A model generated the notes under the pieces. It was not told the DNA's origin and searched no databases. It worked only from the letters and a program-made list of their open reading frames with translations. DNA of 64,000 nucleotides from Tautonia plasticadhaerens. Lineage in GTDB: Bacteria; Planctomycetota; Planctomycetia; Isosphaerales; Isosphaeraceae. Below, in pieces: positions 12,295-40,953 of this stretch (positions are counted from its first letter, which is position 1; each line of letters opens with the position of its first letter). A program made the position numbers and the translations under genes. The stretch lies in NCBI RefSeq assembly GCF_007752535.1, contig NZ_CP036426.1:6944001-7008000 (forward strand), written 5' to 3'.

Positions 12295-12440
12295 TCTTAT
12301 CGCCAAGCTTGCCCGCGGTTCGCCCTGACCCTCGATCATCTCGACGAGGCCTCCCCCGGATGAGACACTGGCGATGTCCCCGGATTGGATGCCCCGGGGC
12401 CAGGGCCGCTCGCGATCACCCCGGACGGGAGGAGGCCGCC

Positions 12441-13328
12441 ATGGCGGGACCACCGCCGCGAATCCTGCTCATCGGCGCCCACCCGGATGACGCCGACATC
12501 AAGGCCGGCGGGACGGCGGCCAAATGGGCCTCGCTCGGCTTCGTCGTCCGCCTGGTGAGCCTGACCGACGGCCGGGCCGGGCACCACGAGACGCACGGCG
12601 AGCCGCTCGCCCTTCGCCGCCGGGCCGAGGCGCAGGCGGCCGCCGCGGTTATCGGCGTGACCTACGAGGTGCTCGACCACCCCGACGGCGAGCTGGACGA
12701 TCGCCTGGAATATCGCCTCGACCTGATCCGCCGGATCCGGTCCTTCCGCCCCGACCTGATCGTCACGCATCGATCGACGGACTATCACCCCGACCATCGC
12801 TTCGCCGGGCTGCTCGTCCAGGATGCCTCGTACCTCGTCACCGTGCCCGCGATCTGCCCCGACGTGCCGCACCTGCCGACCAGCCCCGTGATCCTCTATT
12901 TCTCCGACGCCTTCAGGCGGCCGTGCCCCTTCGAGCCGCACGTCGTCGTCGACATCGGGGACGAGCTGGACCGCCTCGTGGCCATGCTGCACTGCCACCG
13001 GTCTCAGTTCTACGAATGGCTTCCCTTCAACGCCGGCCACCCCGGCGAGGTGCCGGAGGGGGACGACCTCCGCCGCGAGTGGCTGGCAGGTCGCATCCGA
13101 CGCCGCATCGAGCCGCTCGCCGACCGCCATCGCGACTTGGTCGTCCGGACCTACGACCCCGGCCGGGGCGGGCAGATCCGCTACATCGAGGCGTTCGAGG
13201 TGTCGGAGTTCGGCGCGCCGCTGGACGCCGGGGCCCGCGCCCGCCTCTTCCCCTTCCTGCCCGCCTCGTCCTCCGCCACCTCGCCGTTCGAGCGGAAGGA
13301 GTGGGTCGACGTCCCCGACGCGCCATGA
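12441..13328 (+). CDS. PIG-L family (LmbE-like) deacetylase
   Basis: The 295-residue protein carries the hallmark zinc motif AHPDD (His14, Asp16, Asp17), followed by DIKAGGT and the second metal motif HPDHRFAG (the second His of the HPDH is the likely third ligand). Family members are metal-dependent N-deacetylases acting on N-acetylglucosamine-type groups, for example in GlcNAc-inositol, mycothiol or bacillithiol synthesis. In Planctomycetes they often sit in gene clusters for exported sugar enzymes. No signal peptide is present. GGGAGGAGG just before ATG 12441 fixes the start. It opens a same-strand run with the Gfo/Idh remnant and the SGNH/beta-helix gene, and a sugar-derivative substrate is likely, though the exact one is unknown. 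Confidence 0.88.
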   Translation: MAGPPPRILLIGAHPDDADIKAGGTAAKWASLGFVVRLVSLTDGRAGHHETHGEPLALRRRAEAQAAAAVIGVTYEVLDHPDGELDDRLEYRLDLIRRIRSFRPDLIVTHRSTDYHPDHRFAGLLVQDASYLVTVPAICPDVPHLPTSPVILYFSDAFRRPCPFEPHVVVDIGDELDRLVAMLHCHRSQFYEWLPFNAGHPGEVPEGDDLRREWLAGRIRRRIEPLADRHRDLVVRTYDPGRGGQIRYIEAFEVSEFGAPLDAGARARLFPFLPASSSATSPFERKEWVDVPDAP

Positions 13329-13377: not shown

Positions 13378-13716
13378 ATGCCACGGACCACCCGAAGACG
13401 CTTCTTCGAGGAGTCGATGATCGCGGCGGCGACGGCCGTCTCCGCCGGCTCGTACGGGCGGAGGCTGCGGGCCCAGGCCCCGGGGCGAGGCTCGCCCAAC
13501 GACAGGATCCGGCACGCGGTGATCGGCTGTCGGATCCGCGGTCGCGTGCACGCCGACCAGTTCGGCCGGCAGGAGGGGGACGGGGTCGCCTACGTCGGCC
13601 CGCTCCCGCGCATCGATCCCGATCGGGAGTCGCTCTCGGGTGCCCCGGAGGCCGACGCCCTGCTGACCCGAGAATACCGCCGGCCCTTCGTGGTGCCGAA
13701 CGAGCGCGAGGTCTGA
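13378..13716 (+). pseudogene. Gfo/Idh/MocA oxidoreductase, internal-deletion remnant
   Basis: The open frame encodes only 112 residues, against about 400-450 for the family. The N-terminus is intact: a twin-arginine signal (TRRRFFEES, then AAATAVSAGSYG) and the first Rossmann strand (RHAVIGCRIRGRVHADQFG). It reaches VAYVGPLPRIDPDRE, where the next strand would begin, and then jumps to a sequence like the family's very C-terminus (EADALLTREYRRPFVVP). The reading frame is kept across the deletion. Without the substrate domain it cannot be a working oxidoreductase. It lies 49 bases after the PIG-L gene, and the next gene starts 2 bases after its stop codon, so it still looks cotranscribed. The C-terminal match is from memory of the family. 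Confidence 0.65.
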
Positions 13717-13717
13717 C

Positions 13718-15769
13718 ATGACGAGCCCGAGACGAGCGCCTTTCGTCGCGGCCTGCCTTCTGGTCGGCTCCGCCCTGGCCGGGGGAACGGGTCGGGCGAC
13801 CGCCCGGGGGGACGAGCCCGGCTGGCGTGAGGCCATGGCGAAGGTCCACGACCGATTCACCGGAACGCCGGGGACCTTCGCGCACTTCGGCGACTCGATC
13901 ACCGTGAGCCTCGCGTTCTGGTCCCCCCTGCCGCACGAGCGCCGGAATGCTTCGCCCGAATTGGAGCGGGCCTACCGGCTCGTCGAGGACCGGATGCGTC
14001 CCGAGTGCTGGCGGGACTGGAAGGGGCCGGAGTTCGGCAACGAGGGTGGGAGGGCGGTCGGCTGGGCCGAGGAGAACGTGGATGCCTGGCTCCAGACGCT
14101 CAACCCCGAGGTGGCGCTGCTCATGTTCGGCACGAACGACCTTGGCCAGCTCCGCCCGGTAGACTACGCGCGTGGGCTCCGGTCCGTCGTCCGGCGCTGC
14201 CTCGACAACGGGACGGTCGTGCTCCTGAGCACGATCCCGCCCCGTCACGGCCTCGCGGCCGAGGCTGCGGCCTTCTCCGAGGGCGCCCGAGAGGTGGCCC
14301 GGGATCTGTCCGTCCCGCTCGTCGACTACCACGCCGAGATCCTCCGGCGACGCCCCGACGACTGGGACGGGGCCTCCGAGGCGTTCCGGCAGTACGAGGG
14401 CTACGACGTGCCGACGCCGCTGGCACGAGACGGCGTCCACCCCAGCGCCCCGGATCGATTCCGCGGCGACTACTCCGAGGAGGCGTTGCGCAATCATGGC
14501 TACAACCTGCGGAACGCCGTCGTGCTCATAGCCTATGCCGGGGTCCTCGAGGCGCTTGCCGCGCCGCGGCAGGCCGACGCGCCGGCGGACGAGGCCGCCC
14601 AACGTCCGTGGTTCCCCCAGGCGCCTCCGCTGCCGCCCCCGGCGGGCGAGGTGATCCGCGTCTCGGATGTCGCAGGGCTCCACGAGGCCGCCCGTCGCGT
14701 GACGCCGGGCGGCACGATCCTGCTCGCCGACGGCGTCTACCCCGTGACCGAGACCGTGGTCGTCGCCACCGACGGCGTGACCCTGCGCGGCGCATCCGGC
14801 AGTCGGCGGCGCGTGGTGCTCGACGGCGGCGGTACGCTCGGAGAGCTGCTCACGCTCCGATCCTGCTCCGACGTGACCATCGCCGACCTGACCGTCCGCA
14901 ACGTCCGCTGGAACGGGATCAAGCTCGACACCGACACCGGGGTGCAGCGGGCGACCATCCGGAACTGCATCCTCCGGAACATCTGGCAGCGCGCCATCAA
15001 GGGGGTGAAGGTCCCCGAGGACGGCCGGGAGGCGACCCGGCCGCGCGGCTGCGTGATCGAGTATTGCCTGTTCGTGAACGACCGTGCCAAGCGGTTCGAG
15101 GACGACCCGGCCGACACGCCGCAGACCTTCGATGGGAACTACGTCGGCGGGATCGACGTGATGTACCCGAGCGACTGGGCGATCCGCGACAACGTCTTCC
15201 TCGGAATCCGGGGCCGCACCGGGAGCGGCCGGGGGGCGATCTTCCTCTGGCACGACGCCCGCGACTGCGTCGTCGAGCGGAACGTGATCGTGGACTGCGA
15301 CTCGGGCATCTGCCTGGGCAACTCGCACAAGCCGGACGACGTCGAAGTCCACTGCACCGGCGTGGTCGTGCGGAACAACATGCTCTGCCGCGTGCCCGAG
15401 AACGGCATCCTGGCGGACGACACGCGCGATTGCTCGATCCTCCACAACACGGTCCACGACCCCCGCAGCCGCCTCGGCCGGCTGATCCGCGTGGTCCACG
15501 GCAACGACCGCCTCCGGGTCGTCAACAACCTGCTCAGCGGGCCCCCGCCTCGCGTCGAATCCGGGAGTGCGATCACGATGAGGGGAAACCTGATCGGGGA
15601 GTTCACCGCCTCCTTCGTCGCCCCGGGGGAGGGGAACCTACGGCTGACCGCCGCGGCCACCGACGCCATCGACGGGGCCTCCCCCGTGCCCGAGGTGACC
15701 GCGGACATCGATCGGAACCCGCGCGACGAGGCCCCGGACGTCGGCGCCCACGAATACACCGGCCCTTGA
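13718..15769 (+). CDS. exported SGNH hydrolase fused to a right-handed beta-helix
   Basis: The 683-residue protein has a signal peptide (VAACLLVGSALAGGTG). Residues about 45-280 are an SGNH/GDSL esterase: FGDSITV (block I Ser), FGTNDLG (block III Gly-x-Asn-Asp) and the Asp/His pair DGVHP. Residues about 305-680 form a parallel beta-helix like pectate lyases and alginate epimerases: GGTILLADGVY, VTLRGAS, VTIADLTVRNVRWNGIKLD, RNCILRNIW, CVVERNVIVDCDSGICLGN, VVVRNNML, CSILHNTVHD. It ends DVGAHEYTGP, a common end of such helices. The likely role is removing an ester (such as acetyl) from, and binding or cleaving, an acidic or decorated polysaccharide outside the cytoplasm. The ATG begins one base after the stop of the preceding remnant. 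Confidence 0.88.
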   Translation: MTSPRRAPFVAACLLVGSALAGGTGRATARGDEPGWREAMAKVHDRFTGTPGTFAHFGDSITVSLAFWSPLPHERRNASPELERAYRLVEDRMRPECWRDWKGPEFGNEGGRAVGWAEENVDAWLQTLNPEVALLMFGTNDLGQLRPVDYARGLRSVVRRCLDNGTVVLLSTIPPRHGLAAEAAAFSEGAREVARDLSVPLVDYHAEILRRRPDDWDGASEAFRQYEGYDVPTPLARDGVHPSAPDRFRGDYSEEALRNHGYNLRNAVVLIAYAGVLEALAAPRQADAPADEAAQRPWFPQAPPLPPPAGEVIRVSDVAGLHEAARRVTPGGTILLADGVYPVTETVVVATDGVTLRGASGSRRRVVLDGGGTLGELLTLRSCSDVTIADLTVRNVRWNGIKLDTDTGVQRATIRNCILRNIWQRAIKGVKVPEDGREATRPRGCVIEYCLFVNDRAKRFEDDPADTPQTFDGNYVGGIDVMYPSDWAIRDNVFLGIRGRTGSGRGAIFLWHDARDCVVERNVIVDCDSGICLGNSHKPDDVEVHCTGVVVRNNMLCRVPENGILADDTRDCSILHNTVHDPRSRLGRLIRVVHGNDRLRVVNNLLSGPPPRVESGSAITMRGNLIGEFTASFVAPGEGNLRLTAAATDAIDGASPVPEVTADIDRNPRDEAPDVGAHEYTGP

Positions 15770-15876: not shown

Positions 15877-17874
15877 ATGCGAGACAGGAGCCGGGGTCGA
15901 ATGGGACGTCCGTCGATCGCGCGGTGCTTCGTGGCGGCGGCCGCCCTGCTGGCCGCGACCCCCGGGGCCCTGCCCGCCCGGCCGGGCGACGGGGGGGACG
16001 GCGTGCGCTTCCGCGAGGGCTTCGATGACGACCGCCTGCCCGATGGCGGCTGGTACGACGGCCGGGAGTTCGTCATCGCCGGGGAGGAGGCCCGGTCGGG
16101 CGACGGCTGCATCGCTTACCACTGGGAGCCGGGCACGACGACGCCCGAGGGCTCACCCGCCCTGCGGCGCCTCTTCGAGCCGACGGAGGCCGTCTACGTG
16201 CGGTTCTTCCTCAAGCTCTCGGAGGGCTGGGGCTGGTCCGGGCGGCCCTACCACCCCCACCTGATCCAGCTCCTGACGACCGAGAACGGGAAATACCAAG
16301 GCCCGGCCGCGAGCCGCCTGACGGTCTACGTCGAGCCGCAGGAGGGCCGGCTCCGCCTCGCGGCCCAGGACATCGAGAACCGGGACGCGCCCCACGGCCC
16401 GACCCAGGGCCCGCTCCGCGGGGGCGTCAACGGATCGTTCTTCGACAGCGAGGAGACACTCTTCACCGACGACGCCTGGCACTGCGTCGAGGCGCAGTTC
16501 CGCCTGAACACCCTCGACCTCGAGCGGGATCGACCCAACGCGGACGGCGTCGTCCGCGCCTGGTTTGACGGGGAGCTCGTCGTCGATCGCTCCGACGTCG
16601 TCCTCCGCTCGACCGACTTCCCGGGGATGGAATTCAACCAGATCCTGCTGGCGCCCTACTTCGGCCCCGGCCTGCTGCCGCACGAGCAGACGCTCCGGAT
16701 CGACGAGCTGGTCGTCGGGACGAGGCGCCCGGAGGACGACCCGGCCGCGGATCGGTCCCGAAACGGCCGCGCGTCGATGCGCGTGGCCGCAGCCCAGCCG
16801 GGGAACCGGACGATCGACTTCCACCTAGAGCCCGCGGAGGTCCTCGCCCGGGTCGATCGCTCGCTCTCGGAGCTGGAGCGGCTCGTCCACGAGGCCGGGG
16901 ACGCCGGCTGCGACGCCCTGGCCTTCCCCGAGGACACCCTGGGGCTGCTCAACTGGGAGGCGGCACACCCTGAGGCCCTCGATGCCGTCCTCCCCGAAGC
17001 GGTGAGCCGCATGCTCGACCGGCTCGGCCGGGCGGCGGCGGGGCACCGCATGTACCTGGTCCTCTGCAGCGACGCCATCGACCAGGACGGCCGCACGTAC
17101 AACACCGCGTTCCTGCTCGGCCGCGACGGGGACGAGATCGGCCGCTACCGCAAGGTCAACCTGCCGCTGACCGAGCAGTCCCGCGCGCGGGGCGACGAGT
17201 TCCCGGTCTTCCCCACGCCGGACCTGGGGGCGGTCGGCATGCTGATCTGCTACGACATGATCTTCCCCGAGGCGGCGCGCTGCCTGGCGCTGCAGGGGGC
17301 CGACGTCGTGGTCCACCCGACGCTCGGCGGGGCCGCCTTCGGCGACGACGACATCAGCCTGGCCGCCTTCCGCACGCGGGCCGCCGAGAACTTCGTCTAC
17401 CTGGTCGTGGCGATGCGAGGCCAGGGCAGCATGGTCATCTCGCCGCGGGGCAGGGTCCTCGCCACCGCCGAGGGGGCCGACGCGCTGGCGATCGCCGACA
17501 TCGACCCGTGGGGCGGGCGTGAGGGCGGGGACGCCTTCAACACCCAGGCCGACCTGCGCGGTCGCCTGTTCCGCGAGCGGGTCCCCGGCGCCTACGGCCT
17601 CCTGACCGAGCCCGAGCCGCCGGTGCTCGCGAAGGTGCCGTCGAACGTGACCGCGGAGGAGGCCATCCGGATCATGGCCACCGTGCTCACCACCGGCGAG
17701 GAGCGGTTCAACCGGGCGAACGAGCTCGCCCGTTCGGGCGACACGGAGGAGGCGATCCGGCTTTTCGAGCGCCTCTGCGAAGATTGCCCCACGTCCTGGA
17801 TCGAGCGGGCCGCGCGGGCGAGGATCGAATCGCTCCGCCCGCCTGCCCCGGTCGGGACGCACGAGGACCCCTGA
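15877..17874 (+). CDS. exported jelly-roll domain fused to a nitrilase-type amidohydrolase
   Basis: The 665-residue protein has a signal peptide (CFVAAAALLAATPGALPA). Residues about 45-285 look like a concanavalin/polysaccharide-lyase jelly roll (VYVRFFLKLSEGWGW, HLIQLLTTENGKYQG, GSFFDSEETLFTDDAWHCVE, GVVRAWFDGELVVD, NQILLAPYFGPG, LRIDELVVGTRRP). Residues about 300-590 are a carbon-nitrogen hydrolase with its triad Glu352 (FPEDTLG), Lys426 (RKVNLP) and Cys458 (ICYDMIFPE), so it should cleave an amide or nitrile. A short TPR-like tail (RANELARSGDTEEAIRLFERL) closes it. This order, sugar-binding shell then amidohydrolase, is unusual. I infer action on N-acyl or amidated sugars. The start at 15877 is the first ATG after a gap of 107 bases; ATG 15901 is possible. 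Confidence 0.85.
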   Translation: MRDRSRGRMGRPSIARCFVAAAALLAATPGALPARPGDGGDGVRFREGFDDDRLPDGGWYDGREFVIAGEEARSGDGCIAYHWEPGTTTPEGSPALRRLFEPTEAVYVRFFLKLSEGWGWSGRPYHPHLIQLLTTENGKYQGPAASRLTVYVEPQEGRLRLAAQDIENRDAPHGPTQGPLRGGVNGSFFDSEETLFTDDAWHCVEAQFRLNTLDLERDRPNADGVVRAWFDGELVVDRSDVVLRSTDFPGMEFNQILLAPYFGPGLLPHEQTLRIDELVVGTRRPEDDPAADRSRNGRASMRVAAAQPGNRTIDFHLEPAEVLARVDRSLSELERLVHEAGDAGCDALAFPEDTLGLLNWEAAHPEALDAVLPEAVSRMLDRLGRAAAGHRMYLVLCSDAIDQDGRTYNTAFLLGRDGDEIGRYRKVNLPLTEQSRARGDEFPVFPTPDLGAVGMLICYDMIFPEAARCLALQGADVVVHPTLGGAAFGDDDISLAAFRTRAAENFVYLVVAMRGQGSMVISPRGRVLATAEGADALAIADIDPWGGREGGDAFNTQADLRGRLFRERVPGAYGLLTEPEPPVLAKVPSNVTAEEAIRIMATVLTTGEERFNRANELARSGDTEEAIRLFERLCEDCPTSWIERAARARIESLRPPAPVGTHEDP

Positions 17875-36189: not shown

Positions 36190-38148
36190 ATGATGAGTCG
36201 GTGGAGGATGAAGCCGGGCCTTCGGGCGATCGTCGCGACGATCGGGGTGTCCCTCGTCGGGGAGGCGATCGGAGGGGGCCAAGGCGGGGTGCCCGAGCCC
36301 TTCGCCATCGAGGTCGTCGACGCCGAGACCGGCCGGGGCGTGCCCCTGGTCGAGTTGGAGACGGTCAACAACCAGCGGTTCGTCACCGACAGCAACGGCC
36401 TGGTCGCCTTCCTCGAGCCGGGGCTGATGGGCCAGTCCGTCTACTTCCACGTCCGGAGCCACGGCTACGAGTTCCCGGCGGACGGATTCGGATATCGGGG
36501 CAAGGCACTACAGGTCGAGCCGGGCGGTTCGGCCCGCCTAGTGGTGCGCCGCCTCAACATCGCCGAGCGCCTCTACAGGGTCACCGGCGGCGGGATCTAC
36601 CGAGACACCGCGCTGCTAGGCCGCGAGGCGCCAATCCGCGAGCCGCTGCTCAACGCCAGGGTCCTCGGGCAGGACAGCGTCCTTGCCGAGCCCTACCGCG
36701 GCACGATCCGCTGGTTCTGGGGAGACACGAACAAGGTGTCATATCCCCTGGGCAACTTCCACGTCCCCGGGGCCACATCGCTGCTCCCCTCCGACGGCGG
36801 GCTCGACCCCGAGGCCGGCGTGGACCTGACGTACTTCGTCGGCGACGACGGCTTCGCCAAGCCGACGGCCAAGCTGCCGGGCGAGGGCCCGACCTGGCTC
36901 GGCGGTCTGACCGTCCTGCGCGACGCCGGGGGTCGCGAGCGGATGTTCGCCGGCTATGCCAAGATCAAGCCCCCGCTGGAGACCTACGAGAGCGGGCTGG
37001 TCGAGTGGGACGACGACGCGGAGGCGTTCCGCAAGGTCACCCAGTTCGAGGGCCTTCCCCCGGTCCACCCCACCGGCCACACCCTCCAGCGCACCGAGCC
37101 CGACGGTACTCGCCACGTCTACTTCACCACGCCCTTCCCCCTGACTCGAGCCCCGGCCGACTCCGAAGCCCTGGCCGACCCGGGCCGCTACGAGGGCTTC
37201 ACCTGCCTGGAGGCCGGCACCACGTTCGAGGACCGTCGGCTCGATCGCGGGCCCGACGGCCGTCTCCGCTACGCCTGGAAGGCCCGGACGCCTCCGCTGG
37301 ACCAGGCCCAGCAGGCGGAGCTGATCAAGGCCGGCCTGATGCGACCCGACGAGGCGCTGCTGGGCCTGCGCGACCCGGACACCGGCCGCGAGGTCCGTGC
37401 CCACGGCGGGACGACCTACTGGAACGAGTACCGCAAGCGCTGGGTCGCCGTCTTCGTCGAGGTCATGGGCGAGGGCTCCCTGCTCGGCGAGCTCTGGTAC
37501 GCCGAGGCCGACACGCCGCTCGGCCCGTGGGCCTACGCCCGGAAGGTCGTGACCCACGACGACTACAGCTTCTACAACCCGAAGCACCACCCGTTCTTCG
37601 ACGAGGACGGCGGCCGCGTCGTCTTCTTCGAGGGGACCTACACGCACAGCTTCTCGGGCAACCCGGTCCAGACGCCGCGCTTCGACTACAACCAGGTCAT
37701 GTACAGGCTCGACCTGGCCGACCACCGCCTGAACCTCCCGGTGCCGGTCGATCACGAGTCGGTCGGGGCAAGGGATGGGGGGCATGCCCCGGCTCTCTTC
37801 GCCCTGGGGCGCCCCGGCGACGGGACGGTCCCGGTCTATTCGGTCGAGGACGACCAGGGGGGCCATTCGCTCGTCGTCGGCGATCCGCCGACCCCCGACG
37901 CAATACCTGCCTTCCATGCGCTCCCGGCCGATCTCGCGACGCCGCCACCGACCACGACGCCCCTCTACGAATTCACCCGACCGGACGGCGCGGGCCGACT
38001 CTACGCGACCTCCGACGCGATCGAGGGCTATCGACGCTCCGAGCTGCCGCTGTGCCTGGTCTGGGTCGACCCCGTCGGGGTCCCGATCCCGGACACCGGG
38101 GAAACCCTGGTCGATCGCGGCGACAAGCCGCAAGAGGCACGACCATGA
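36190..38148 (+). CDS. exported protein with Ig-like and glycosidase-type propeller domains
   Basis: The 652-residue protein has a weak signal peptide (LRAIVATIGVSLVGEAIGGG). Residues about 35-125 look like a carboxypeptidase-regulatory or Ig-like domain (PFAIEVVDAETGRGVPLVEL, RFVTDSNGLVAFLEPGL). The rest is a beta-propeller: GTIRWFWGDTNKVSYPLGNF, LTVLRDAGGRERMFAGYAKI, GLVEWDDDAEAFRKV, HVYFTTPFPL, TTYWNEYRKRWVAVFVEVMG, GELWYAEADTPLGPWAYARK, SFYNPKHHPFFDEDGGRVVF and TRFDYNQVMYRLDL-like ends. This blade pattern is shared with DUF4185 and GH43/GH117-like families. A W-Y-A-E-A-D-x-P-x-G-P-W blade is typical of glycan-acting propellers. GGGAG precedes ATG 36190. It is the third gene of the operon; the exact activity is unknown. 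Confidence 0.8.
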   Translation: MMSRWRMKPGLRAIVATIGVSLVGEAIGGGQGGVPEPFAIEVVDAETGRGVPLVELETVNNQRFVTDSNGLVAFLEPGLMGQSVYFHVRSHGYEFPADGFGYRGKALQVEPGGSARLVVRRLNIAERLYRVTGGGIYRDTALLGREAPIREPLLNARVLGQDSVLAEPYRGTIRWFWGDTNKVSYPLGNFHVPGATSLLPSDGGLDPEAGVDLTYFVGDDGFAKPTAKLPGEGPTWLGGLTVLRDAGGRERMFAGYAKIKPPLETYESGLVEWDDDAEAFRKVTQFEGLPPVHPTGHTLQRTEPDGTRHVYFTTPFPLTRAPADSEALADPGRYEGFTCLEAGTTFEDRRLDRGPDGRLRYAWKARTPPLDQAQQAELIKAGLMRPDEALLGLRDPDTGREVRAHGGTTYWNEYRKRWVAVFVEVMGEGSLLGELWYAEADTPLGPWAYARKVVTHDDYSFYNPKHHPFFDEDGGRVVFFEGTYTHSFSGNPVQTPRFDYNQVMYRLDLADHRLNLPVPVDHESVGARDGGHAPALFALGRPGDGTVPVYSVEDDQGGHSLVVGDPPTPDAIPAFHALPADLATPPPTTTPLYEFTRPDGAGRLYATSDAIEGYRRSELPLCLVWVDPVGVPIPDTGETLVDRGDKPQEARP

Positions 38149-38373: not shown

Positions 38374-40953
38374 ATGAAAATGATCATCTGCATTGTCCTC
38401 ATCTGCTCGGCCCCGTCGCCCGTCGCCAACGAGCCGAAGACGGCCTATTTCGCGGACGGCTACCACGGCGGCGTCCACGGCCACTACCCACCGGGTTTCA
38501 CGGGCTTCCTCGTCGAGCAATTGGGGGCAAATCCGGACTGGAAGATCAACTTGGAGATCGAGCCGGAGACTTGGGACGTCGCCCGCGTCTCCGAGCCCGA
38601 GGCCTACGAGGCGTTCAAGACGATCATGGAGGACCAGTCCGATGCGGGCCGCATCGAGATCGTGAACCCGACCTACGCACAGAGCTATCTCTTCCAGAGT
38701 TCCGGCGAGAGCGTGATCCGGCAATTCGACCACGGGATCCGGAAGACGCGCGAGCACTTCCCGGGAGTCATCCTCACGACCTATTCCTCCGAAGAGCCGT
38801 GCTTCACGAGTTGTCTGCCGCAGGTGTTGAGGTCATTCGGCTACGAGTTTGCCGTGCTCAAGAACCCCAACACATGCTGGGGAGGCTACACTTCGTCCCA
38901 CGGGGGCGAGCTGGTGAACTGGGTCGGCCCCGACGGCTCCTCGATCCTCACCGTGCCGCGCTACGCATGCGAGTCGCTGCAGCCCGGCTCCTGCTGGCAG
39001 ACGATCGCCTTCGGGAATTCGCCGGAGTACATCCAGGCGTGCTTCGATCAGGGAATCGAACACCCCGCGGGCATGTGCCTTCAGGATGCCGGATGGCGGG
39101 GAGGACCGTGGCTTGGATCGGCGGAGAAGGACCACTACGCGCCGTCGAAGTATGTCACGTGGCGCGACTACATCCGGAATGTCACGTCAGCGAGAACCGA
39201 TCACGACTGGCGGTTCACCCAGGAGGACGTGAAGCCCGGGCTGATGTGGGGAGCGCAGGTCTTGCAGCGTATCGCCCAGCAGAGCCGCGAGGCCGAGTGC
39301 CGGCTGCTCGTGGCAGAGAAGCTCGCGGCGATGGCGCTCGTCGACGCCGGTCGCCCGCCCGGGACGAACTCCTTCGACGAGGCCTGGCGCAACGTCCTCC
39401 TGTCCCAGCACCACGACTGCTGGATCGTCCCCTACAATGGCCGATTGGGGAACACCTGGGCCGACCAAGTCCGCCGCTGGACGAACCTTTCGAATGCGGT
39501 GAGCGACCTCTCCCTGCAGCGATCCCTCGACGCACTGCTCGGCGGTCGAGCGACGCGAGGGCGACGCTTCGTGCGATTGTTCAATCCAACTGCCGCGGCG
39601 CTGGACGCCGTGGCACCGGTGCCGATTCCGGAAACGGCCGGGCAGTCGCGGATCGTCTCGATCGATGCCGATTGCCGCTGCTTCTCCACGCAGGTCGTTG
39701 CGTCCGACACGCCGGGGCGGAGCACTCTGCTGGTGCGCGCCGCCGTGCCGCCGCTGGGCTACGCGACCGTCGAGCTCGTCGAGGACGACGAGGCAGCCGA
39801 GGGGGGCGTGACGACCACGTTCGACGAGCACGCCGTCGTCCTGGAAAGTGATCGATACCGCATCGAGCTCGACCCCGCCCGGGGAGGCACGATCCGAAGC
39901 CTCGAGGCGAAGTCGCTGGGCGGCCGCGAATTCGTCGACATGGCGCATGATCGCCGCTTCAACGAGCTGCGCGGGCATTTCTACGAGAAGGGCGGCTTCC
40001 GGTCGAGCGCGGACCACCCGGCCGAGGTCCGCATCGTCGAGGACGGTCCGCTGCGAGCCACGGCGGAGGTCGCCGGCGCGATCGACGGGCATCCCTTCGT
40101 GCAGCGCGTCTCGATCACTCAGGGCTCGCCGGTGATCGATTGCTCCGTGCGGATCGAATGGCGCGGCAACCCGGGCATCGGCGAATCGCGGGAGACGAAC
40201 GGCTGGGACAATCGTCGACGTCCGGCTTACGACGATCGCTACAAGCTGCTCATCCTCTTTCCGACCAAGCTCGCGGGTCAGCGGGTCGCGAAGAGCGCGC
40301 CATTCGACGTGTGCGAGAGCGATCTCGTCGACACCTTCTATAACTCCTGGGAGGACATCAAGAACAACGTGATCCTCGACTGGGTGGACATCGGCGATGA
40401 GGAGGGCGATCACGGTCTCACGCTCTTCGGCGACCACACCACGAGCTACACGCACGGCCCGGACTTCCCGCTCGGCCTCACCCTCCAGTACTCCGGCAAG
40501 GGCCTCTGGAGGCGCGACTACTCCGTCGACGGGCCGACCGAAGTGCGCTACGCGCTGATGCCGCACGCTGGCCGGTGGGAGGAAGCAGGCGTCTCAGCGA
40601 TCTCGGCGAGCTGGCAGGAACCCGTCCTGGGCACCCTCTCCCGCGACGGCGAACCTCGCGTGCGATCCCTCATCGATCCCCTCGAGTCCGATTGGGAAGT
40701 GCCGGCGATGTACGAGAGGGACGGTGCGTTGCACGTGCGGCTCTTCAACGCCATCGGCGGCGACACCCCGGGCGATCTCGGCATCGGTTTCGAGGCTGGG
40801 AGAGTCGAGCTCGTCGAACTCGACGGCCGCGTCATCGAGGAACTTGAACCCCTGATCGATGCTGCGGGAAGGCGAACGATCCGACTGCGCATCCCCCGTC
40901 TCGGGATCCGCACGGTGCGATTCGGCGGCCTCAAGCCTCCCGGATCCGGATAA
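38374..40953 (+). CDS. exported GH38-like alpha-mannosidase family protein
   Basis: The 859-residue protein has a short hydrophobic start (MKMIICIVLICSAPSPVA) and then the layout of GH38 enzymes: an N-terminal TIM-barrel-like catalytic part (about 22-330), a helical middle (LRLL-type LLVAEKLAAMALVDAG ... WRNVLLSQHHDCWIVPYNG, where SQHHD is the conserved GH38 motif) and a C-terminal all-beta region (ESDRYRIELDPARGGTIRSL, YSVDGPTEVRYALMPH). The usual H-S-H-x-D opening is replaced by FADGYHGGVHGHY, and where the nucleophile Asp of I-D-P-F-G-H is expected the protein has TYSSEEPCFTSCLPQ, so Glu140 or Glu141 may take its role. Base composition is slightly less GC-biased than in its neighbours. No strong ribosome site precedes ATG 38374. 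Confidence 0.8.
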   Translation: MKMIICIVLICSAPSPVANEPKTAYFADGYHGGVHGHYPPGFTGFLVEQLGANPDWKINLEIEPETWDVARVSEPEAYEAFKTIMEDQSDAGRIEIVNPTYAQSYLFQSSGESVIRQFDHGIRKTREHFPGVILTTYSSEEPCFTSCLPQVLRSFGYEFAVLKNPNTCWGGYTSSHGGELVNWVGPDGSSILTVPRYACESLQPGSCWQTIAFGNSPEYIQACFDQGIEHPAGMCLQDAGWRGGPWLGSAEKDHYAPSKYVTWRDYIRNVTSARTDHDWRFTQEDVKPGLMWGAQVLQRIAQQSREAECRLLVAEKLAAMALVDAGRPPGTNSFDEAWRNVLLSQHHDCWIVPYNGRLGNTWADQVRRWTNLSNAVSDLSLQRSLDALLGGRATRGRRFVRLFNPTAAALDAVAPVPIPETAGQSRIVSIDADCRCFSTQVVASDTPGRSTLLVRAAVPPLGYATVELVEDDEAAEGGVTTTFDEHAVVLESDRYRIELDPARGGTIRSLEAKSLGGREFVDMAHDRRFNELRGHFYEKGGFRSSADHPAEVRIVEDGPLRATAEVAGAIDGHPFVQRVSITQGSPVIDCSVRIEWRGNPGIGESRETNGWDNRRRPAYDDRYKLLILFPTKLAGQRVAKSAPFDVCESDLVDTFYNSWEDIKNNVILDWVDIGDEEGDHGLTLFGDHTTSYTHGPDFPLGLTLQYSGKGLWRRDYSVDGPTEVRYALMPHAGRWEEAGVSAISASWQEPVLGTLSRDGEPRVRSLIDPLESDWEVPAMYERDGALHVRLFNAIGGDTPGDLGIGFEAGRVELVELDGRVIEELEPLIDAAGRRTIRLRIPRLGIRTVRFGGLKPPGSG

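Follow-up and report, generated by a model that had tools for sequence, protein, structure and literature searches.

The nitrilase-superfamily amidases of the PH0642/Nit2 type that serve as a comparison below are cytosolic enzymes. Vanin (pantetheinase) is an extracellular enzyme of the same superfamily, and its second domain is placed after the nitrilase domain. Among the papers listed by literature searches, none bore a title dealing with nitrilases of Planctomycetes that are secreted or fused to a lyase, and what PMC2699552 says on nitrilases had no bearing on the subject. The gene described here lies in a stretch of 64,000 nucleotides of the Tautonia plasticadhaerens genome (9,395,224 bases, six contigs); this whole stretch is referred to as the window and provides all coordinates given below, unless a locus of another genome region is named. 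The encoded protein consists, in this order, of a signal-peptide-like start, a beta jelly-roll domain of about 245 residues, a nitrilase domain and a TPR-like tail:

15877 to 17874, forward strand: whole fusion gene, 665 codons, sole stop at the end of the frame
15877 to 15978, forward strand: signal-peptide-like N-terminus, residues 1-34, by hydropathy
15997 to 16734, forward strand: jelly-roll domain, residues 41-286, PL20/PL14-like (17 homologues; sub-threshold Pfam matches; fold matches of a low-confidence model)
16735 to 16776, forward strand: linker of about 14 residues, where the matches to separate proteins end and begin; junction DNA
16783 to 17508, forward strand: nitrilase (CN_hydrolase) domain, residues 303-544 (Pfam 111 bits; fold Z 20.2)
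16930 to 16932, forward strand: codon of Glu352 (AFPED), triad position
17152 to 17154, forward strand: codon of Lys426 (YRKVN), triad position
17248 to 17250, forward strand: codon of Cys458 (ICYDM), triad position
17707 to 17796, forward strand: TPR-like tail, residues 611-640 (TPR_14, 22.4 bits against a cut-off of 23.5)

One uninterrupted frame thus joins both domains, as the original prediction had claimed, and judged from the sequence both halves are intact and conserved. The TPR-like tail is an addition to that prediction. The protein is probably exported, in line with its earlier description as an exported enzyme; this assignment was made from the hydrophobic N-terminal stretch, in which the best 12-residue hydropathy (2.27) is found at residue 17. 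An alternative start at 15901 retains the hydrophobic stretch and has the better ribosome-binding motif in a comparison of the upstream motifs.

The nitrilase half was recognised by the Pfam profile CN_hydrolase (PF00795) at residues 303-544 with an E-value of 7.5e-32 (111.1 bits against a cut-off of 23.2). The triad of Glu352, Lys426 and Cys458 is complete, with exactly the numbering that had been predicted, and is invariant in all nine aligned rows, that of the window included. By sequence, PH0642 and 3ivz, a hyperthermophilic nitrilase, come closest among the solved structures (E about 2e-17). A model of the nitrilase half, calculated from three sequences and of medium confidence (mean pLDDT 61.2), matched 3ivz with a Z-score of 20.2 and an rmsd of 2.9 over 193 aligned residues at 28% identity. 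The profile score, the Glu-Lys-Cys triad and the modelled alpha-beta-beta-alpha fold are in agreement with membership in the nitrilase superfamily. None of the nine listed NCBIfam families of nitrilase equivalogs was matched at its cut-off, the best being nitrile_Arch with 74.5 bits against 500.

The jelly-roll half is one member of a family, about 240 residues long, that occurs in Planctomycetota and Verrucomicrobia; it shares 55-71% identity with 17 further homologues. These homologues, together with two comparisons that gave dN/dS ratios of 0.14 and 0.25, indicate that this half is not a chance frame; the ratios for the locus as a whole lie between 0.12 and 0.25, approximate values because dS is near saturation. 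The Pfam profiles Polysacc_lyase (PL20; E 0.0067, 16.8 bits) and Polysacc_lyase_14 (E 0.013, 15.7 bits) matched below their curated cut-offs of 29.9 and 27 bits, neither of which was reached. The best fold matches of a low-confidence model from seven sequences (mean pLDDT 49.5, pTM 0.54) were a PL20 glucuronan lyase (Z 13.4), the PL14 enzyme vAL-1 (12.9) and PL36 (12.4), followed by Cip1 (11.3), X122 (10.4) and unrelated jelly rolls (10-11). Foldseek placed PL14, PL36 and PL20 at the top, and the best matches of this low-confidence model (PL20, PL14, PL36, Cip1) form one coherent group. The original prediction of a lyase-like sugar-binding domain stands in its first part on the strength of the sub-threshold PL20/PL14 matches and the fold of the low-confidence model; the binding of sugar is something that we infer. 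Clostridial neurotoxin binding domains were numerous among the fold matches and were read as generic jelly-roll matches. A profile of the family gave nothing usable among solved structures, and neither did its relative in the genome G280 (see below). For the look-alike X122 domains, the published report gives neither a clear activity nor a clear binding (PMC10916295).

Among 297 genomes of the class, eight contain a match to the nitrilase half at E 1e-30 or below (in five, this genome included, with at least 62% identity), and 12 contain one to the jelly roll at E 1e-10 or below; within these limits T. plasticadhaerens is the sole genome with both families. G280 alone has a match to the nitrilase half among the 170 genomes of its own family at E 1e-28, and 392 genomes of the phylum contained two further close orthologues, G572 and G680, both 67% identical. 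No nitrilase is joined to any of the 17 other jelly-roll family members, and a jelly roll of the window's family is fused to none of the six further close orthologues of the nitrilase (in G002, G003, G007, G280, G572 and G680). A jelly-roll search of these six genomes gave one match at E 0.01 or better, in G280 (E 0.007). The domain search across relatives, proposed along with the original prediction, thus found the order of jelly roll and nitrilase nowhere else in the sampled genomes. Because no relative is fused in this way (0/17 and 0/6), we regard the pairing as lineage-specific and not as an established architecture. Separate genes in all relatives had been named as an outcome that would refute the prediction; this is indeed the situation in the sample, but the fusion in the present genome stands.

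Two orthologues are linked to further domains. In G280, the single jelly-roll match falls in a gene whose end lies 9 nt upstream of the nitrilase orthologue. The encoded protein of 395 residues scores against PL14 with E 2.5e-5 (24.5 bits, cut-off 27) and is distantly related to the window's jelly-roll family (hhalign probability 96.4, E 1.2e-9, 86 columns). Neighbouring genes code for three sulfatases confirmed by Pfam and one HpcH/HpaI aldolase, and a fourth gene reads like a sulfatase; a sulfatase gene is also located near the orthologue of G572. Because these bacteria have sulfatase genes in large numbers, we give the sulfatase neighbours less weight than the jelly-roll gene next to the orthologue. 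In G680 (L099:8906-11815), the nitrilase orthologue (66-67%) is part of a 969-residue fusion with a C-terminal domain of about 550 residues, relatives of which are present in 10 other genomes of the 149 sampled. Neither Pfam nor NCBIfam gave a noteworthy match to this domain, and a single-sequence search of the PDB gave none; PL17 AlgL17 (E 0.21) and pectic acid lyase (two of eight members, best E 0.0046) were considered and rejected as non-significant. No lyase gene was seen beside the nitrilase copy of G007. Because the jelly-roll gene of G280 adjoins the orthologue and G680 fuses the orthologue to another large domain, this independent linkage lifts the pairing above chance.

Our leading but tentative explanation, to which we give somewhat less than an even chance, is that the protein is an exported cysteine amidase which in this lineage became joined to a lyase-type jelly roll and acts in polysaccharide breakdown. 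The signal peptide would carry the protein across the inner membrane, and the jelly roll would hold (or, less likely, cleave) an acidic polysaccharide or oligosaccharides derived from it. With Glu352 as activator and Lys426 as helper, Cys458 presumably attacks the carbonyl of a C-N bond, which could be a primary carboxamide or an N-acyl group, on the glycan or released with it. A thioester on Cys458 would form, and water would then regenerate the enzyme; the TPR-like tail may aid assembly. This explanation is favoured by the triad and the fold, by the hydrophobic leaders of the unfused orthologues, by a dN of the nitrilase half against G002 that is close to the one between the unfused G002 and G003 (both described below), by the adjacent jelly roll amid sulfatases in G280, by the sulfatase in G572 and by the G680 fusion. 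Against it stand the pairing in 0/17 and 0/6 relatives, the lack of any second genome with both families among the 297 of the class at the limits given above, the neighbours in G002 and G003, which would also fit small N-acyl compounds, the G007 copy, beside which no lyase gene was seen, the low confidence of the jelly-roll model and the published results on X122. The amidated or N-acyl sugars that the original prediction proposed as substrates have indirect support from the gene neighbourhoods of G280, G572 and G002. If this reading of the neighbourhoods is right, nitrilase-type amidases would belong to the machinery with which Planctomycetota degrade polysaccharides, and glycans that bear amides would be a testable class of substrates.

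Upstream of the fusion gene the following genes are present:

12309 to 13328, forward strand: ORF of a PIG-L type de-N-acetylase (Pfam PIG-L, E 1.5e-28), with an in-frame ATG at 12441; syntenic with G002 and G003
13378 to 13716, forward strand: Gfo/Idh/MocA oxidoreductase of 112 residues, with an in-frame internal deletion, both ends recognisable, rather conserved
13718 to 15769, forward strand: GDSL hydrolase/beta-helix gene directly upstream of the fusion (Pfam Lipase_GDSL_2, Beta_helix)

In the window, PIG-L is followed by the shortened MocA, the GDSL/beta-helix gene and the jelly roll fused in frame to the nitrilase. The order in G002 and G003, which are of the same genus, is PIG-L, a full-length MocA and then a protein of nitrilase and TPR alone with its own hydrophobic leader, and whole-genome searches found no jelly-roll member in either. 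A whole-genome search of a third sister species, G001, revealed one stand-alone jelly-roll member; the nitrilase half has no match in this genome at E 1e-30. Hydrophobic leaders are present in the unfused orthologues of G002, G003, G007 and G280. Since these orthologues carry signal-peptide-like starts of their own, the export of the nitrilase is probably older than the fusion and the jelly roll is probably the new part. The nitrilase half differs from G002 with a dN of 0.167 (0.150 between the unfused G002 and G003), and the jelly roll from G001 with a dN of 0.18. We assume that the jelly-roll gene and the GDSL/beta-helix gene were placed between those of MocA and the nitrilase, and that a signal peptide with the jelly roll took the place of the nitrilase's own signal peptide. 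Because the sister species keep the parts separate, the locus represents a clear case of domain accretion. An exact direct repeat of 16 nt is shared by the GDSL/beta-helix gene (15098-15113) and the linker of the fusion (16732-16747). Elsewhere in the window, a 652-residue frame (36190-38148) has no Pfam match at E 0.001 and adjoins a GH38-like frame (38374-40953).

It is conceivable that the fusion was an accident, in which a rearrangement provided an exported nitrilase with a new signal peptide and a jelly roll that is a passenger or has a separate job; we consider this unlikely but give it an appreciable chance. The restriction of the pairing to this genome would fit such an event, and so would the neighbouring MocA gene, the internal deletion of which indicates that the locus was rearranged. 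Homologues of the GDSL/beta-helix protein are present in 8 of 99 relatives, this genome included; no match to it was listed in nine loci of relatives that contain a jelly roll or a nitrilase, so that these loci give no sign of a joint travel of the GDSL and jelly-roll genes, again as an accident would have it. However, both halves look conserved, on ratios that are rough at a dS near saturation, and the jelly-roll relative adjoining the orthologue in G280 is hard to put down to chance.

The preferred reading as an amidase of polysaccharide breakdown has a further competitor, in which the nitrilase half, once exported, scavenges small amides or N-acyl compounds in general and the jelly roll serves only to anchor it to extracellular glycan. 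A gene run in G002 (L047:1103-10712; G003 has the same layout) comprises an SGNH/alpha-beta hydrolase, penicillin amidase, PIG-L, MocA and the exported nitrilase and is possibly an amide/ester scavenging cluster; its penicillin amidase, esterase and PIG-L genes fit small N-acyl compounds too. The closest solved relatives of the nitrilase half also are enzymes of small amides, among them PH0642, Nit2 and the glutaramide-bound amidase from P. horikoshii. Since the sulfatases and the PL14-like gene of G280 and the sulfatase of G572 instead point to a polysaccharide, we hold the scavenger to be improbable. Even less credit is given to a bifunctional exported lyase-amidase, in which the jelly roll would cut a uronate-rich polysaccharide and the nitrilase half would strip uronamides or N-acyl groups from the fragments. 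The removal of amides from glycan fragments is, to our knowledge, known for no nitrilase; if it were true, the same pathway would be represented independently by the adjacent genes of G280 and by the fusion of G680.

It is very improbable that no such protein is made, be it by a start at Met301, as the original prediction had itself raised as an objection, that yields a cytosolic nitrilase or be it by an assembly error: the in-frame ATG of Met301 (16777) sits exactly where the nitrilase half begins, but none of six ribosome-binding motifs is found within 20 nt upstream of it, the methionine is retained in one of six aligned orthologues, the two halves are alike in codon-position composition, and the genome report describes the T. 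plasticadhaerens ElP genome, from an alga isolate, as complete with one chromosome and five plasmids (PMC7716859). A DNA search against plasmids retrieved five records with short nitrilase stretches only.

Export in combination with an extra domain, regarded as unusual in the original prediction, turned out to be ordinary in these bacteria. All 20 further nitrilase relatives that were compared (L018-L037, one locus per genome, picked by score) have a hydrophobic leader, and in 18 of them the nitrilase domain is preceded by an additional N-terminal region, with 165 to 449 residues ahead of the domain (over-long start choices account for the longest); two have a leader only. The N-terminal domain of these common exported nitrilases (about 170 residues, consensus APRDEIRP...) is without Pfam match in the members scanned, and its profile gave weak matches only in the PDB, the best being a xylanase (E 0.049). 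Two more exported-looking fusions, L002 and L005, are among the eight nitrilase matches of the T. plasticadhaerens genome. L002 has an N-terminal domain of this common type, and L005 (L005:1348-3291; G000:C1, match 4277385-4277969) has a leader, a BD-FAE esterase (E 3.9e-39) and then CN_hydrolase (E 2.7e-30). In G654, a protein of 884 residues (L101:5025-7679) is composed of a leader, a calcineurin-like phosphoesterase, a middle domain and a nitrilase.

The exported two-domain nitrilases of Planctomycetia (L018-L024, L026-L034, L036 and L037) resemble the fusion protein in the succession of leader, N-terminal region and nitrilase. In the eight N-terminal segments that were aligned as one domain family, seven from these 18 loci plus that of L002, the domain is however a different one, and no homology to the jelly roll was found (hhalign probability 0.2). 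With the PH0642/Nit2-type amidases the nitrilase half has the Glu-Lys-Cys triad and the fold in common; the amidases compared are single-domain proteins, to which the fusion protein adds a leader, the jelly roll and the TPR-like tail. The fold of Vanin is also matched by the nitrilase half (Z 19), but the extra domain is C-terminal to the nitrilase in Vanin and N-terminal in the fusion protein. PL20, PL14, PL36, Cip1 and X122 would, according to the low-confidence model, share the jelly-roll fold of the N-terminal domain and are likened to it by fold; the domain differs from them in that it remains below the Pfam cut-offs and is 10-19% identical. It is a member of the secreted jelly-roll family, the 17 other members of which stand alone or, in two Verrucomicrobia (L039:4645-6750 and L040:4729-6759), are C-terminal to a glucose/sorbosone dehydrogenase (E 2e-30 and 1e-28). 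Because exported-looking two-domain nitrilases are common in the class, the surprise is not export but the lyase-like partner, and the protein is a one-lineage fusion of known parts.
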